In this document: in pieces, positions 804 through 50,800 of the stretch
How positions within the stretch are numbered: position 1 is the stretch's first letter
How the letters are laid out: every line of letters starts with the position of its first letter
Assembly: GCA_964023275.1 (NCBI GenBank)
Contig: OZ029914.1
Coordinates: 28,905,707-28,969,706, forward strand
Reading direction: 5' to 3'
From: Norana najaformis
Lineage: Eukaryota > Annelida > Clitellata > Crassiclitellata > Hormogastridae
Length of the DNA: 64,000 bases
Position numbers and translations under genes: made by a program
Notes under the pieces: generated by a model
Told to the model about the DNA's origin: nothing
Database searches by the model: none
What the model saw: the letters and a program-made list of their open reading frames with translations, nothing else

Positions 804-2885
804 CTAAAACATCACGTTATAGTAGCATCATGTAATGACGCCAATGTCTGGACAATCCGCCATAGGAAAATTTGCCATAGGAATATTTACCATAGGAAAA
901 TTTGCTGCAGGACAGCTAAGACCAGATGCTACCCTTGACACAGAGATATATAAATGATTACCAGATAAGCACCTCCTTTTGCTGAAACATTTAAAAATTC
1001 TGTGGAAATAAGGAAACTACAACTATTTCTCATCTGCTTTAAACTGCCTACAACAAACTTTCCTCCATTGAACTGTCCTGCCAAAAATTATCCTAACACC
1101 GATATAACCTGACATTTACATAATGGATATTACAAGTCAATCAAAACATAATGTAAAGGATGTAACATAACTGGGTATCTACGTAGCACTGCTTCAGAAT
1201 ACTCATCAGCAAACAACAATTCTAACACGACCAGATCAAACAACGATCACAAAACAAAGATAACAGAAAGTTAAGCAGTTCTTGGCTTAATATACCAGGG
1301 AACCTGTTGGACTGATTAACTACAGCACAACTCCCAAGCTTATATAACACAACTATTTTGAATCCCGCTTCCCAATTATAAATCGTACTCTGAACAAAAT
1401 ACCTCTAAAGGACCTATATAAAGCTCCGAATGAATGAATTTCAAAAAATAGAAGTATCATGGTTTGGCCACTTGAATATTTTCATCTTTAAACTGCATAA
1501 AGGATCTGGATGAAGAACTTGCTGAAGCTCATATAAAAAAAAAAGAAGCCATTCACCTCTGGGGTTTCGACTATGATGTCTAACTAGGCCACAATAATTG
1601 AATTTTATGCCAGTGTATGGTATGCAGTGAAGCTTAAACTCAGGGAGCCATCAGCTCATCTTGCAGGGCATAGCAAAGATCTGCAACCTGAAAAACGACG
1701 ACAGAGGAACAAAGAGAACCTGAGGGGATTAATACTATGAATGCCCAGCCAAAGAGGTTTTGGACGAGTAACAATAGAACTACTCTGCTTTGTTGCATTT
1801 GCATTTACCTGGCACCCTAAAAACAAGTGACAATCAATCAGGTTCCTCACAATATGTTCATCAACAGATTTCAGTAATGAAAGCACGACCACTCAACTCC
1901 TTTAAGGATGCAGTCGATCCTTTGTTTAATTTTTGGTCTCAGATATCTTTGATGTTTTTTCATCTCATGCTAGACCTGCATTCTTTGTTTGGAGGCTTTC
2001 ATTTCATTTCCTTCTGCTCATATACCTTAAGCAGAAATGCATTAAATGCCAGAGCTGCATCTGAGGTTCTCTCATATTATATGTATAGTATACTGCAAGA
2101 AAATGGGACAATTGTATGCCGCCTTTGAAGGATCACCCAGAGCCAAAACATATATAACATGTATACATGTATCACTTGTGAAAAGCACAAAATTTATTGT
2201 TAAGGCTGCATGAAATGCATCATCATCATCAACATCATCATCAATCATCATCAGTCATCATCACCATCATTAGTACTAAAATTTATGATGCAAACAAAAG
2301 TCACACAGAAATGTGAATCTGAGGCACAGGTAGTCAGTCATCAGGCGGTGGTAGTGCAGTTAGTAATCCACATGTTTGAAAGCCTATTACAGTAACAGGG
2401 TGACCTGAATTTTAATATAGTACTAGGGTAACTTGAAATGCAATATAGTAATAAGGTAAACTGAAATGTAATATTTTAATAGAGTAACCCAGTTGTAGTG
2501 GGACTTGCATCCTTTTGGTGATCTTTTGACCACCAGCATGAACTGTTACCATTACAGTGTTACTAAGTGTTCTATTTTGTTAGTGATTCAATAAACCGCT
2601 TTAAATTGAATAACATACACATTTATACAGACATCCAGAAGTACATTAACGTGACTAGAATGGTCAAGGAGAATGGTCATGTCTGGTAATAATGGACAGT
2701 GACTGTAGTCTACAGCTAGACAATGTGGCTAACATTTACAGCAATCAGACAGTTCTAACTGCCTCACTGTGAATTACAACAACAATTTTCTCTTTGACTA
2801 GACAGCTGGTGCCTATGAGAATTCTAGGCACTTAGTGTCTGCTGTAAGATCATTAAAATGTGTAAAAATTAAGTATGATACTTAC
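804..2885. other. DDR intron 6
   Basis: AT-rich intron. It contains about three copies of an 18-bp unit (CCATAGGAAAATTTGC-like, 859-906) and an ATC-rich run at 2218-2275, but no recognisable gene or complete transposon. The short ORFs here look random. Confidence 0.6.
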
Positions 2886-3410
2886 CTCCAAAGAACCTGA
2901 TCTCACTGATCATCATCCACCTGGCTTCAAAAAACAGAACCAGTTTCACAAAACGTCCGCATCGGTAAGGTATCGGGATAAAGACATGTCGAGCAGCCTC
3001 CATTGCTACATCCTTGAGGTGATTGTACACTACTGGATCTAAAGAGAAGTGTTTCCCACCAATACTAAAATAAACTCTTGCTTCACGGAAAATACTGATC
3101 TCTTTTGAAAAGACATTATTGGCAACGATGTGGACGGCAGAAAAGTTTCGAGTCTGGTCAAACTTGAAAACGATCTCAACTGGCTCATAGGAAGGAGTTT
3201 CATTCCGCCAGGCAACCCATTCATAGCCTTTCTTGCCGATGTTTTGCAAATCAAGCCGGAAATTTGTATTTCCCTCTTCAAGGTCAGTCAGCTGACCAAG
3301 GCCTTCTGATAGGTAACCAGATGACACCATGCCGTCATACGTGAAATCGTAGAAGTCCATTTCGGTTCCACGTCTGTCCCCCTGGCGCATGTTGTATGAG
3401 ACAACGCCAT
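2886..3410 (-). CDS. DDR: DDR coding exon 6: DS-like domain
   Basis: The acceptor is TTTTGTCATCTTCTGCTTAG and the donor is TTTGGAG|GTAAGT, giving 525 nt: 2 bases, 174 codons (197-370), then 1 base. It holds the whole DS-like beta-sandwich that packs on the discoidin domain. Landmarks are GVVSYNM, FTYDG, EGLGQLTD, GYEWVAWRNET, VEIVFKFDQTRNFSA, NNVFSKEISIF and RWMMISEIRF, all colinear with human DDR1/DDR2. The sequons NETP and NFSA suggest N-glycosylation, although Pro after Thr may weaken the first. Three cysteines of the vertebrate DS-like domain are replaced by non-cysteines here. A piggyBac-type element lies 37 bp upstream of the acceptor, so the branch point must lie in that short stretch or in transposon DNA. 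Confidence 0.96.
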
Positions 3411-44505: not shown

Positions 44506-45760
44506 TTAAAATACTCAATATAATATGAATTTATCTGTATATTTGCTGGTCCCTGTCTACTTATAATTTATTGCAAGCAATACTAAAACTGAAGATCACA
44601 TTTTATAGGTTATTTGACTAGATAATACCACATCCTTTTTGCAACACACTCAGGATATCCATCAGAAGCAAGAAGGATTGGCCACATGGGTTGTAACAAG
44701 ACACTTTCTCTCCCTAAATTATTTTCCCATTAAATCACTAACTTGCCAGATTTTTCCAGGAAAGATATTTACAGAGGAGCCTCATGAGTCCCTCGAAACA
44801 CCCAAGAAGAACCTGACACTAAAAATAGGGCCCAAGAGACAAGAACCAGAATCAGAATGCCACGTCAGACCAGATAAGATATGGATAAAAACCAGCATTA
44901 GACTGAGTCAGTAACTATAGACCACAACAGCAGGGATTGGAGGGGCTGGCAAATTAGCTCCCAATGTTCAGGAGACAAGGGACAGAATAGGGTGTGGTCA
45001 GCAACTGAAATGGAAGACCAGAAGACAGCCCACTGCTAAGTACAATCTTAAGAATAAACAGGGAACAGTATTAAACTTTGAACTTTTATGAGCACATGTT
45101 TTCACTTGACTTATCTGAGAACCTCCCATCCATCCGAAATAATTCATTTAGACAATTATTCTGGCAAGATAACATAAAGGAGCCACTAACAAACAGCTCC
45201 AAAACAAAAACAGATAAAATGACCAAAACTGTAAGAAATAACTTTCAAGTGAGTACACAACAATGGCGGCCAAATGGAATTCCACAGCATTTAACTGTAG
45301 CACTGCAATTACTATGCAGTTTGTTCGAGATCATGCCATAGTACCACCCGCAACCAAAGACTTAGGACCCACTTCTGTTGTTTTGTGCTTCAGATAAATT
45401 GTCCATCTTACAATCCTATGACTGTGTAATACTTGGAGGTAATGCAATGGCTCATTTACTAAATGTTTTTATCAAATAGTAGTCTGCATTCATTGGAACT
45501 GGAGAACCCATTGGTGAAGAATCCAGAATCAGACTAATAATTCACTGGACAACAAATTTTTACAAAAGTCATGTTACTGAAATGAAATTAGTCAGTTCTT
45601 ATCAATTTGTATGTGCTGAACACGAATATGACAGTGAAAATGCCGAATTGGCTCTAGTTTTTTTGTAATCTGAAATGAAGTAATTTTATATCGCACAATG
45701 CATGCCAATAGTGATACACTTACAGTTAATATTTGTAAAAACCAGGTCATAGACTAGTTC

Positions 45761-47446
45761 TTAGATTTTTTTTGCCTGTCTCTTGTACAGCTGTTCGGAA
45801 GCATCTCTGCGGAGTGTCCAGCAGTAGTCAGCCAACATTGTAGTGGACCATTTTCCCTGGTACCTTTGCTCCATTGTTGCGATATCTTGATGAAAACGTT
45901 CGCCATGTTCGTCACTAACCATACCACAGTTGTCAGGGAAGAAATCCAGATGGGAATGAAGGAAATGCATCTTCAGAGACATATTGCAGCGAAATTTCTG
46001 GTACTGCTTGAGCATGTCTTCTACTAGTTCCTTGTAGTTTTCTGCCCTAACATTCCCCAGAAAGTCTGTAGACACTAGACGAAAAGCATTCCATGCTTGT
46101 TTCGCATCACCCTCCAGCAAGTTGTTGAAGCGGTCATCTTTGAAGAGTTCTCTAATCTGAGGACCCACAAAAACTCCCTCTTTAATCTTTGCTTCGCTGA
46201 GTCGAGGGAATTTTTCATGCAGGTATCGGAAAGCTGGCGAAGTGCGGTCCATGGCTTTCACGAAGTTCTTCACCAAACCTAGTTTGATGTGAAGGGGTGG
46301 TAGTAGGATTTTGTGAGCCTCGACCAGAGCTGGGTGCTGGATATTCTTCTGTCCAACTGCCATGTTTTGTCTGGGAGTCCATTCCTTCCGCACGTAGTGC
46401 AACTCTCTTGCTCGGCTATCCCACTCACACAAGAAACACATATATTTTGTATATCCTTGCTGCAGTCCCATTAAAATGGCAACTACCTTCAAATCACCAC
46501 ACAGGTGCCAATTGTACCTGTTATAGTCAATGGAATGCAGTAGCTGTTTAAGGTTATCGTATGTCTCTTTCATGTGGACAGCATGCGCTAATGGAATAGA
46601 TGGAAGACGGTTTCCATTGTGCAAAAGCACAGCCTTAAGACTCAGTGTTGAAGAGTCTACAAAGAGTCTCCATTCTTGTGGGTCATGAGTGATCTGTAAG
46701 GCATTCATGAGGTCGTCAATGTTGGAACAGAATACCAGATTACCTTCCTTCATAAAGAAAGGTTCCAACTGCTGATGGCGCTTTCTATATGAAGTAATTG
46801 TGACATCTTCTTCTAGAAGATTCCATTGTTGGAGTCTTGATCCTAGCAATTCTGCCTTGTTTTTGGATAAGTCCAAATCACGAACAAGGTCATTTAGTTC
46901 TTCCTGTGTTATTCTGTGTGGGGTTGATGATGCACCACAGTGAAAATCGGGATCACTGCACGCTGACGGACCAGGAGTAGAACATGTCGGCTCACCCTTG
47001 TCCTCATCAGATGAATCAAGGAAAATATATTCTGCTGGAGGTTCTGGAATAGGAAGTCCATCACCATGTGGAACTGGTCTCAATGCTGACGGAATGTTTG
47101 GGTAGACTATTGTCGACTTCTTTTGCTTTGTTATTCCACCGGAAAGAGGAGGAACCAAGCAGAAGTAACAGTCATCTACGTGGTTGCTTTGCTCTCTCCA
47201 CACCATGGGAACTGCAAACGGCATTGATGGTCTTTTGCCATTCAACCACTGTGAAAGCTGTGTTGTACATGTAGCACAGCATATATGCGGGGCCCATGGC
47301 TTGTCTTGGTCACCAACCTTGCATTCAAAGTAAGCATGATATGCCTTCTTGACTTGATAAGTGATACTTTTCCTCTGGTTGGCAAATGTCACTTCCCCAC
47401 AAATGTAACAAAAGTTGTCCACAGTATTTACGCACTTCCGAGGCAT
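45761..47446 (-). CDS. Transposase-like protein, 561 aa, uninterrupted
   Basis: Single-exon ORF starting MPRKCVNTVDNFCYICGEVT; the ATG has G at -3. The N-terminal 100 residues carry cysteine pairs (C13/C16, C56-C57/C60, C93/C96) suggesting zinc binding and DNA contact. An acidic/Ser linker (143-175) follows. The core has FVDSS (D264), CGDLKVV (D318), a CxxC insertion CFLCEWDSR (C337/C340), LLPPLHIKLGLVKNFVKAMD (382-400) and SDEHGERFHQDI (511-522). D264, D318 and E513 or E516 are candidate catalytic acids of a DDE-type transposase; that is inference. I recognise the family as long uncharacterised single-exon proteins repeated in many invertebrate and some fish genomes. I do not know its accepted superfamily name. 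No stop or frameshift is seen at near-full family length. Confidence 0.85.
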   Translation of the reverse strand: MPRKCVNTVDNFCYICGEVTFANQRKSITYQVKKAYHAYFECKVGDQDKPWAPHICCATCTTQLSQWLNGKRPSMPFAVPMVWREQSNHVDDCYFCLVPPLSGGITKQKKSTIVYPNIPSALRPVPHGDGLPIPEPPAEYIFLDSSDEDKGEPTCSTPGPSACSDPDFHCGASSTPHRITQEELNDLVRDLDLSKNKAELLGSRLQQWNLLEEDVTITSYRKRHQQLEPFFMKEGNLVFCSNIDDLMNALQITHDPQEWRLFVDSSTLSLKAVLLHNGNRLPSIPLAHAVHMKETYDNLKQLLHSIDYNRYNWHLCGDLKVVAILMGLQQGYTKYMCFLCEWDSRARELHYVRKEWTPRQNMAVGQKNIQHPALVEAHKILLPPLHIKLGLVKNFVKAMDRTSPAFRYLHEKFPRLSEAKIKEGVFVGPQIRELFKDDRFNNLLEGDAKQAWNAFRLVSTDFLGNVRAENYKELVEDMLKQYQKFRCNMSLKMHFLHSHLDFFPDNCGMVSDEHGERFHQDIATMEQRYQGKWSTTMLADYCWTLRRDASEQLYKRQAKKI

Positions 47447-47560
47447 TACTGTTCTGTATTGTATCTAAATGGATAAAGTAATAATAGTTTTATAAAACAG
47501 TAACTTAAACTGTCTCGCACAAAGTCTGTAATATTGTAAATGCTCAACCGTTCCGACTCG

Positions 47561-47642
47561 CTTTATATAGTACACTGCTGACGTCATCTTACGTCAGCAG
47601 CCGACTGGCTGTAGTTTTACATTGCATCAGAAAATGACGTAA
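47561..47642 (-). promoter_or_regulatory. Putative transposase promoter: TATA box and CRE sites
   Basis: On the minus strand CTATATAAAG (47570-47561) lies about 115 bp upstream of the transposase ATG. Just upstream is the inverted repeat CTGCTGACGT...ACGTCAGCAG (47575-47600), which includes a perfect cAMP-response palindrome TGACGTCA (47579-47586). A further CRE-like TGACGTAA is at 47635-47642. Factor binding is inferred. Confidence 0.6.
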
Positions 47643-47895
47643 TCAACTGTGCATGATGTGTCCATGATGGGATTATGCAATGAGGTGGAATATTACATCA
47701 TTCTAGACTTATTTAGGATATTGTCGCAGTCCTACTGCATAAATTTACATGGTGAAACATAAAAAATGAACTATATGAAATATTTTCAAAACGAGAGCCA
47801 ATAAAAAATTTTTATGGTTATATTCGTGTTCAGCACACCAAGATGCTACACATTAGGGCCTTTTCCAGTCAGTAACGATTTCTCTGTTGACCAGT

Positions 47896-50800
47896 TATAA
47901 CAGAAAAAACTCTGCCTGATGTATTATACCATGACTTTGTGATTGTTAATTTACATGAACGATACATTGAAATTCAAAACAAGCACTCAGTGCCTTTAGT
48001 TACCTTTGCATCTCAACGCAGAACCGAACCTGACTCAACTTTGCCTGAAACAATTCTGATTTGACTGTGCACCTGTGAATAAGCTGGTTCCTTTTTGGTG
48101 CTGAAGAAATCCGGAGATTATGATTATGATTCATTACCCAATGACCAACACTGCAACCAAGGAAGGGACTGCTGATAAGCATTTTTATGGATTAAGACTT
48201 GGGAACCTTCTGGTGCACTCCTATCGGGGTTCACCATGTTAGTTTCATACCTGCAGCCTTTCTCAAAGCTCAACTGCTTGGCCATTCACAGCCATAGACT
48301 ATGTTACAGCCGCTCTGTCCCAACTAATTGGAAACCTAGACCTGAAGTTAGATTCTGGAGCTCATCCAATGACGTACGTCTTCCACACGGTTATTCCTTT
48401 TGCTAGATCCGCCCATCCCCATACCAACAAATTCCCAGCCAATGGGTTGCTAACAGAAACCATATATGACCTGCCGCTTAGGGCTGTTATTCTGTCTTCT
48501 GCAGCGGGAGCTCCTTTCCAGTTGCATTAGCAAACATCTGAAAGAAATTTCACTCACTAAACCGCCTTTCACCCGACAATGGCCACGATGCCGCTGATAA
48601 ACGTCAGACCAACCAGTCATTGGCCAGCCAGCCGATCAGCATTCAATGCAGCGGTTGTCCTCCAGGAAAGACAGCATCTACTGACAAGAAAATGCTCCAT
48701 GACAGCCACTGACAACTACTTGAGTAATCAGAAAGATGTTCTTTGGAATCTAATTTCCACTTACATTCCTTCCTTCACAAACAGCGTGGCTCAAGTTAGG
48801 CCATGCAACAGCAAATTTATCCCATAGGAGATCAGGTCTGCCACTTTTTCAAAGCTCTTGACCTGGAGCAGAAAAATGACTTAGAGGATTTGTTTAACTA
48901 AACACCATTCCTATTCAGGCCCACTTGCCTGCTTATTTTGATATTCCACAGCAAGCATAGCTGTGCATGGAAAACGCAAGATTGCAATTGTGGCGAGCTG
49001 ATAGCTTCCGCACCTGAACACCAATCATTGTCAACGTATAACAATCACTTAAACAATCATAAACATCGGCATCTTAGTGTCAGTACTGATCGACTTTCAC
49101 ACTCACTTGAAGCAACCGACATTTAGGCAGAAAGTATGATTCCTGGAAATTAACACCTGTTTCTGCAAGCTGGACTGAATGCTGAAGTATAAGTCTTACA
49201 TCTTTGATGACTCGGCTTTTAGATTTTAACGGTACTCTAGGCTTTGTATTTCCTGTCTTTGGTACAAAAGCCCAGCAAGCAGTCTGCAGGTAAAAAGGGG
49301 AAGAAAAGTCTCTTCTCTCATTTGGTCTGACTGTTTCTTATCAAAGATCTATACATATGCCCCATGAAACGTTTTTCCCCTGCCACATAGGTCTTCCCCA
49401 ATTGCCGTCAACCATGAATCAGACCATGCAGCAGTCATTACATTAGACAATAGTAAATTTGCAGAGTAAGGCTTCCTGTCAAATTGCAATGCACGGACTA
49501 GCAGGAAGGACAGGTCACGCATTGTCTGGTATTGCTATTGTTTTTGCTGAAACATCCTACAACCTCAGAACAGGACGTCAGCTAAGGTCTACTGCTGAAT
49601 GGAGGCATGAAATGAATGCGTGCAAAATAGCTTTCCTCGGCCACTGCAAGCCACCCATTGATAAGATTCAATGCCTAACATATCTACGATCAGTACTTAA
49701 CAGAAGTCATTGCTGGCCAGTCTGGTTTCCACAGCGCCAATTTTCTAGTCTGTCAGCAATGCCAGCAATCACTGAGAAAATGTCAGACGGCCAAGAAAGA
49801 ACAACCAGAGAAAAACACAGGAACACCCACAGACACAAACAAATCCAGGGGCACAAAGGAACATCCAGGAAAACATAAATATCCCGAGAAACAGAGGAAC
49901 AATCACAGAAACACACACATTTAGGGAAACAAAGGAACTGTCAGAAACACACAGAAACATACAAAGAAGAAAAGACAGATCCGGATAAACAGAAGCAACC
50001 AGAAGAAACATTTAAATGGCAGCCAAGAAATGAGGGATGTAAACATAACTGAAAATGACTCGTCGATGTGCACACCCTTCGATCGGAACGTCGTACATCA
50101 CTCACATCAAAACTCAAGCAGAGCACAACGTTAATCGGAAAAGGCGAAAGGCAAGTTCTTCAGTAAGAAAGTAATGGATTCTGTAAAGACATAGACATAA
50201 TTGCTAATGCTGTTTATATGATGATATATTGAATATGCTAGATCATAATTTCATAAGGAAACCTGTGGTCTAAGTAACACCTGGAAGAAATGTACCGCAC
50301 TAAAATCTGGATACATAGTATCAAAAAAACAAGTAAGCGCAGAAAGGCACAGGCAAAGGAGAGTAATAGAAGGAGACAATTTAGGAATTCTTTGAAGTTA
50401 TTGCAGGTAACAAACTTCTCACATTTTGCAAAACAAGTTACTGGCTATATATGAGTTCGGAAGAAAAACGCTTTTCCCAAACATCCACAACATGCTGTCA
50501 TGTTACTAGCGAACAGAAATATGAGAAACTGACACCCAGTTGGGTGTCAAGCTGGATGTCCATAGGAAGAAATAGGATGCATTTAGCTCATGGACCCAAC
50601 TAAATGTAACATTTCATCAGATTCTGCTGTTCTACAAAACTGGTGTAAAATGAGGTACAGTATGAGTTGATTATTCCATATTTTAGGAACATTACTGCAC
50701 AAATGTTATACAGGATTACACAGTACATGACATCATATGTCTTTGTACAACATTAAATGAGTTTAACAGCACACCCTCTTTTAAAAGCATATTTGGCATC

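Follow-up and report, generated by a model that had tools for sequence, protein, structure and literature searches.

The window, a 64,000-nucleotide stretch of the Norana najaformis genome, contains an element that is very probably a young copy of an autonomous cut-and-paste DNA transposon of the Chapaev3 group from the CMC/CMCT clade. We regard it as the representative of a new family of this already named group, distinguished by a burst that is both large and fresh and in which most copies are full-length. A preliminary description had placed the transposase in an uncertain superfamily and considered the element a poorly described system; by contrast, the features that could be compared match those of Chapaev3, which has already been named and described (PMC4079192). 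According to the same account, elements of Chapaev and Chapaev3 have CAC/GTG ends, insert between A and T with duplication of TWA, and encode C(2)C, LH, and H(4)H, and the TWA duplication is reported there for all Chapaev3 elements examined (PMC4079192). Chapaev3 is treated as a Chapaev sublineage within the CMCT clade in a further report (PMC12730594). At the level of the family, the element has CAC/GTG ends, a 3-bp TWA duplication in an A_T context, the C(2)C, LH, and H(4)H motifs, the size of a Chapaev3 element, and empty sites. The assignment is based on these hallmarks and not on similarity to a named sequence, because searches of Pfam, NCBIfam, and the PDB gave no match.

The limits of the window copy were determined by BLAST and by comparison of its ends with those of other copies. 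The span of 45544..47895 proposed initially was nearly right; however, the compared copies place the ends one base wider on each side (Table 1). The majority length across copies is 2353 bp. The terminal inverted repeats recognized in the preliminary description are present: the 12-bp CACTGGNCAACA is inverted at the two ends and is accompanied by a gapped subterminal block of 50 nucleotides with 80% complementarity. Alignment of the two ends of the majority sequence scores 93, whereas the maximum among 200 shuffles is 66. The impression that the element is intact holds for the reading frame, which is open, but not for the 5′ terminus, where the terminal C is missing or replaced by A, so that the first triplet is AAC. 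The junctions of the window copy are odd, with TTA followed by TA on the left and AA followed by TTA on the right. The target-site copies assigned to it are provisional, because extra bases intervene between them and the element. The sequences that had been read as a core promoter are present: a TATATAAA box is preceded by a palindrome with TGACGTCA, both upstream of the transposase start codon. To call them a candidate promoter is a fair guess, and an internal TATA promoter probably drives the single-exon transposase gene.

Table 1 Features of the transposon copy in the window (target-site copies and motifs with putative functions are marked as such).
Feature	Position in window	Strand	Basis and remarks
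Whole element, very probably Chapaev3	45543..47896	-	5′ end 47896, 3′ end 45543; from compared copies
Left target-site copy (provisional), TTA in element sense	47898..47900	-	Sequence; extra bases between TTA and element end
5′ terminal inverted repeat, CACTGGTCAACA in the family	47885..47896	-	First base A in window copy
Subterminal inverted block, 5′ side	47788..47837	-	Repeat search; 50 nt, 80% complementary to 45612-45661
CRE-like palindrome holding TGACGTCA, upstream of TATA box	47575..47600	-	Sequence and self-match; putative function
TATA box-like TATATAAAG	47561..47569	-	Sequence; putative function
Transposase ORF, 561 aa	45761..47446	-	ORF list; 40 of the first 48 copies encode 563 aa
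Cys-rich N-terminal region, residues 13-97	47156..47410	-	CxxC 13/16, CCxxC 56-60, CYFC 93-96
D264 codon, candidate first catalytic Asp	46655..46657	-	Position from translation; putative role
D318 codon, candidate second catalytic Asp	46493..46495	-	Position from translation; putative role
C(2)C motif, C337-F-L-C340	46427..46438	-	19 residues past D318
LH motif, L385-H386	46289..46294	-	Picked by place among the six LH pairs of the sequence
H(4)H motif, H494-H499	45950..45967	-	Translation
Candidate catalytic Glu, E513-E516	45899..45910	-	E516 probably preferred
Subterminal inverted block, 3′ side	45612..45661	-	Repeat search
3′ terminal inverted repeat, TGTTGTCCAGTG	45543..45554	-	Compared copies
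Right target-site copy (provisional), TTA in element sense	45538..45540	-	Sequence; extra AA between TTA and GTG end

The window copy and another copy, L033, have 12 bp of the right flank in common (AATTATTAGTCT; window 45531-45542), after which their flanks diverge. A 24-mer spanning this flank and the element end occurs nowhere in the genome other than at the window copy and at L033, and the two copies have no internal variant in common. We regard the common flank as chance or a one-off.

The copies compared with each other are the best-scoring 78 of 6573 first-look candidates from a protein search; fractions within this set are not representative. End patterns allowed one change at the 5′ end and two at the 3′ end. 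Both ends were recognized in 58 of the 78 copies; the others had a single recognized end, which was the 5′ one in 6 copies and the 3′ one in 14. Some of these 20 copies with one end unrecognized are truncated and one (L035) has an altered 5′ end; in 19 of the 78, more than about 20 bases at one terminus are missing from the alignment. Among the 58 copies selected for having both ends recognized, 57 start with CAC and 53 finish with GTG, and the sole other 5′ triplet is the AAC of the window copy. An exact 3-bp duplication is present at the junctions of 29 of the 58 copies, which is about half of them, compared with 9.1 expected from re-pairing of the flanks. When only the 51 copies whose CAC and GTG are both exact are considered, 29 have the exact duplication, and it is TTA or TAA in 21 of these 29. 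The left target copy is preceded by A in 40 of 57 cases and the right one is followed by T in 39 of 57. Matches of 4 bp were found at 1 of 30 junctions.

It is unlikely that the element represents another CMC/CMCT lineage, such as Chapaev proper, EnSpm/CACTA, or Transib, even though those lineages, too, terminate in CAC/GTG or CA..TG and have C(2)C and H(3-4)H (PMC12730594, PMC4079192). A 3-bp duplication that is mostly TTA or TAA in an A_T context is the published signature of Chapaev3, and the rarity of 4-bp matches also speaks against the other lineages. Transib elements generate a 5-bp duplication and EnSpm elements start with CACTA; however, neither of these features was seen in the element.

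The TWA duplication characterizes the Chapaev3-like family of the window, but not every copy, since a perfect 3-bp duplication is absent from 22 of the 51 copies with exact ends. Point mutation cannot account for these imperfect junctions, because the divergence of the copies is only about 0.26%. Some of the imperfect junctions resemble TWA to which one or two A/T bases have been added on a single side or on both. A subfamily defined by such junctions was considered; the best class, with one extra base on both sides, has 5 members compared with 1.7 expected, which after about ten offsets tried is suggestive only, and no class is claimed. It is possible that the imperfect junctions reflect imprecise joining, repair, or assembly error.

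Two empty sites confirm that the element inserts. When 57 joined junctions were compared with the window and with the remaining loci retrieved, there was one match, in which the joined flanks of copy L040 correspond to a stretch beside L033 (86 of 103 positions, 6 gaps). The second site was found by reading flanks: copy L030 is located in a short tandem repeat, and the adjacent uninterrupted unit matches the joined flanks at 57 of 58 positions across the junction. The duplication of L030 is ACA, not TWA, with one ACA in the empty unit and two at the insertion. The initial identification of the element as a DNA transposon is upheld by its defined ends and target duplication, by the two empty sites, and by a copy number in the hundreds.

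The single-exon transposase reading frame on the minus strand is open in the window copy and is by far the longest of the 16 window reading frames of at least 120 residues. The 561-residue frame is real, and the candidate catalytic residues D264, D318, and E513/E516 and the CxxC motif C337/C340 are located where the preliminary description had put them; the N-terminus is cysteine-rich as claimed, with CxxC, CCxxC, and CYFC at residues 13-97. A 1-base insertion, which changes the last codons of the window reading frame, is present in 4 of the 78 copies including that of the window. Therefore, elements carrying the insertion have multiplied, by means of their own transposase or that of other copies. 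The cysteine-rich N-terminus is consistent with a candidate Chapa zinc domain, which has been reported for Chapaev3 as well as for the N-terminal portion of RAG1 (PMC4411706). The order of the motifs in the DDE core at loose spacing also arises in 82 of 2000 shuffles, and is therefore weak evidence when taken alone. The key residues are nearly invariant in the 78 copies, with E516 changed to A in one copy and a silent change of C13 in two; however, this constancy says little, because the copies diverge so little. Single-sequence AlphaFold (AF2) models have a mean pLDDT of 37.8 for the whole protein and 40.6 for residues 225-561, which is too poor for a fold search.

The Pfam search of the 561-residue protein that had been proposed for finding its family gave no match above the cut-off, the best hit being a gag model with an E value of 0.11. 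NCBIfam yielded no family for the protein, and PDB sequence searches provided no convincing match and no RAG1, the best hits being adenylate cyclase with E values of 1.5 and 1. The N-terminus searched alone had no match. Searches of viral, phage, and bacterial collections found no homologue, and three pattern scans gave 0 hits each. Three viral or bacterial pattern hits were rejected as chance, as tblastn found nothing beyond the typed motif or short noise, and one pattern hit in Actinoplanes (L001) was judged to be chance from reading 1 kb around it. The lack of matches in Pfam, NCBIfam, and the PDB would suit a new transposon superfamily, which is nevertheless very improbable, as each Chapaev3 hallmark open to testing is present and a missing Pfam match is expected if Pfam has no Chapaev3 model. 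Elsewhere in the window, a 173-residue reading frame at 2869-3390 on the minus strand matches PF21114, the DS-like domain of the discoidin domain receptors DDR1/2, with an E value of 7.7e-56, and represents an exon of a host gene. A Pfam scan of eight other window reading frames found no family.

The Chapaev3-like element is abundant. The genome searched comprises 608,420,607 bases in 17 contigs, and exact-pattern counts across all of it gave 884 5′ ends, 959 33-mers of the catalytic motif, and 777 3′ ends, whereas the reversed control patterns of the 5′ end, 33-mer, and 3′ end had 0 matches each. The genome thus holds roughly nine hundred nearly identical copies of the element. The best-scoring 78 of the 6573 candidates are distributed over every one of the 17 contigs, all match residues 1 to 560/561 at 99-100% identity, and 75 of them have no internal stop. 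Substitutions separate them from the majority sequence by a median of 0.255%, with values from 0.042 to 0.510%, and 10 of the first 48 copies reproduce the majority protein without an amino-acid difference. The distinct coding variants in the 78 copies comprise 92 synonymous and 105 nonsynonymous changes as well as 3 stops, which gives an N/S ratio of 1.14 compared with the neutral expectation of 2.95; however, the ratio is biased downward, because the copies were selected by protein score. On contig C1, among the 88 exact 5′ ends listed, the 33-mer lies at the full-length distance in 71 and at a shorter one in 2, and 8 of the 15 remaining listed 5′ ends are paired with an exact 3′ end at a distance of about 2.3 kb. 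Therefore, the copies on C1 whose 5′ end is exact are mostly of nearly full length and are not short derivatives. Because roughly nine hundred copies are nearly identical, the element jumped very recently, and it may still be able to do so. The copy count and empty sites proposed as checks in the preliminary description thus gave near-identical copies in the hundreds and two empty sites, and the domesticated single-copy gene that it had named as the alternative is excluded by the 884, 959, and 777 exact matches. There is a negligible chance that the element is a domesticated host gene with old transposon ends retained, for which the open reading frame and seemingly constrained coding changes (in a sample biased by protein score) could be cited, but against which stand the hundreds of near-identical copies with differing flanks, the scored copies on all 17 contigs, and the empty sites.

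The genome contains other matches to the pattern ERFHQDI..M, which in its degenerate form, with a codon unused by the family of the window element, has 114 exact places and 0 in the control. The places listed include at least four sequence types, with one near-identical type forming most of the list; examples are C1:5810233, C3:29072961, C9:25399923, and C11:24691625. The 114 places probably represent further Chapaev3 families, one with a burst of its own.

In the mechanism that we propose, the single-exon gene would produce a 563-residue DDE transposase, in which the cysteine-rich zinc region of the Chapa type at the N-terminus probably binds the end repeats. By analogy with the DDE family, D264, D318, and E516 would perform two-metal cleavage, and C(2)C...H(4)H would form a zinc-held insertion in the catalytic core. 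The core probably cuts both the CAC/GTG ends and joins them to the target with a 3-bp stagger, mostly at A-TWA-T, and some copies may still be active. The window copy is a likely source of transposase; however, it is a doubtful substrate for transposition, because its 5′ terminal base is altered. The family is a candidate for a natively active CMC-clade transposase, and the natural burst seemingly consists of mostly full-length copies, not short deletion derivatives. Among the papers listed in literature searches, no title or abstract pointed to biochemistry on a Chapaev enzyme. The hundreds of near-identical natural copies would offer a ready protein, with no reconstruction, for tests of hairpin cleavage, zinc use, and target choice. 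As a tentative extension, a natural CMC-clade (RAG1-like) transposase may still be active here, in a living animal, in an ongoing burst of about 900 copies that are mostly full-length. The frequent imperfect junctions, in which one or two bases are extra or missing, would then result from end cleavage or joining that is looser than has been reported for the known Chapaev3 families.

CMC transposases are thought to be distantly related to the V(D)J recombinase, and the transposase of the element is probably distant kin of this antibody-gene-shuffling enzyme. A 285-residue piece of RAG1 has no significant alignment with the protein (z 2.1, reached by 18 of 500 shuffles); only C(2)C is in register, and the H(4)H motifs are out of register. 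In a PDB search, the same piece retrieves solved RAG1 chains and reaches the solved DNA transposase 6pqn (Transib) at an E value of only 0.0089. Therefore, the missing similarity to RAG1 is no strong argument either way. The motif residues of RAG1 are D600, D708, E962, C727/C730, and H937/H942 (PMC4914335), and the order D...D...C(2)C...H(4)H...E is common to RAG1, Transib, ProtoRAG, and the protein described here. The spacing from the second D to the first C is 19, that of the two C is 3, and that of the two H is 5 in both RAG1 and the transposase of the element; by contrast, the two D residues are 54 apart in the transposase and 108 in RAG1 (PMC4914335). Unlike in RAG1, Transib, and ProtoRAG, the target duplication is 3 bp long. 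A RAG2-like partner is absent from the element, because it contains only one reading frame of at least 120 residues.

Within the CMCT clade, EnSpm/CACTA, Plavaka, ESTA, and Lanisha are reported to have C(2)C and H(3-4)H motifs and CA..TG ends (PMC12730594), which the element has as well; it differs from them in its terminal CACTGG and TWA target. Among the published Chapaev3 elements, the silkworm Garfield is reported to have 2,289 bp and 556 residues, and Merrow_PM 2,451 bp and 78 + 484 residues (PMC4079192). The element is like Merrow, Garfield, Conan, and the Chapaev3-n entries of Repbase, as far as these are described, in its ends, in TWA insertion between A and T, in its motifs, in a length in the range of 2.3-2.45 kb, and in a protein of about 560 residues. 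The genes of Merrow and Garfield have two exons, whereas there is a single exon here and in most other Chapaev3 elements (PMC4079192). The many junctions with imperfect duplications are unlike those in the published descriptions of Chapaev3. The 884 exact 5′ ends of the family compare with more than 254 copies reported for Merrow_PM, which were counted differently (PMC4079192).
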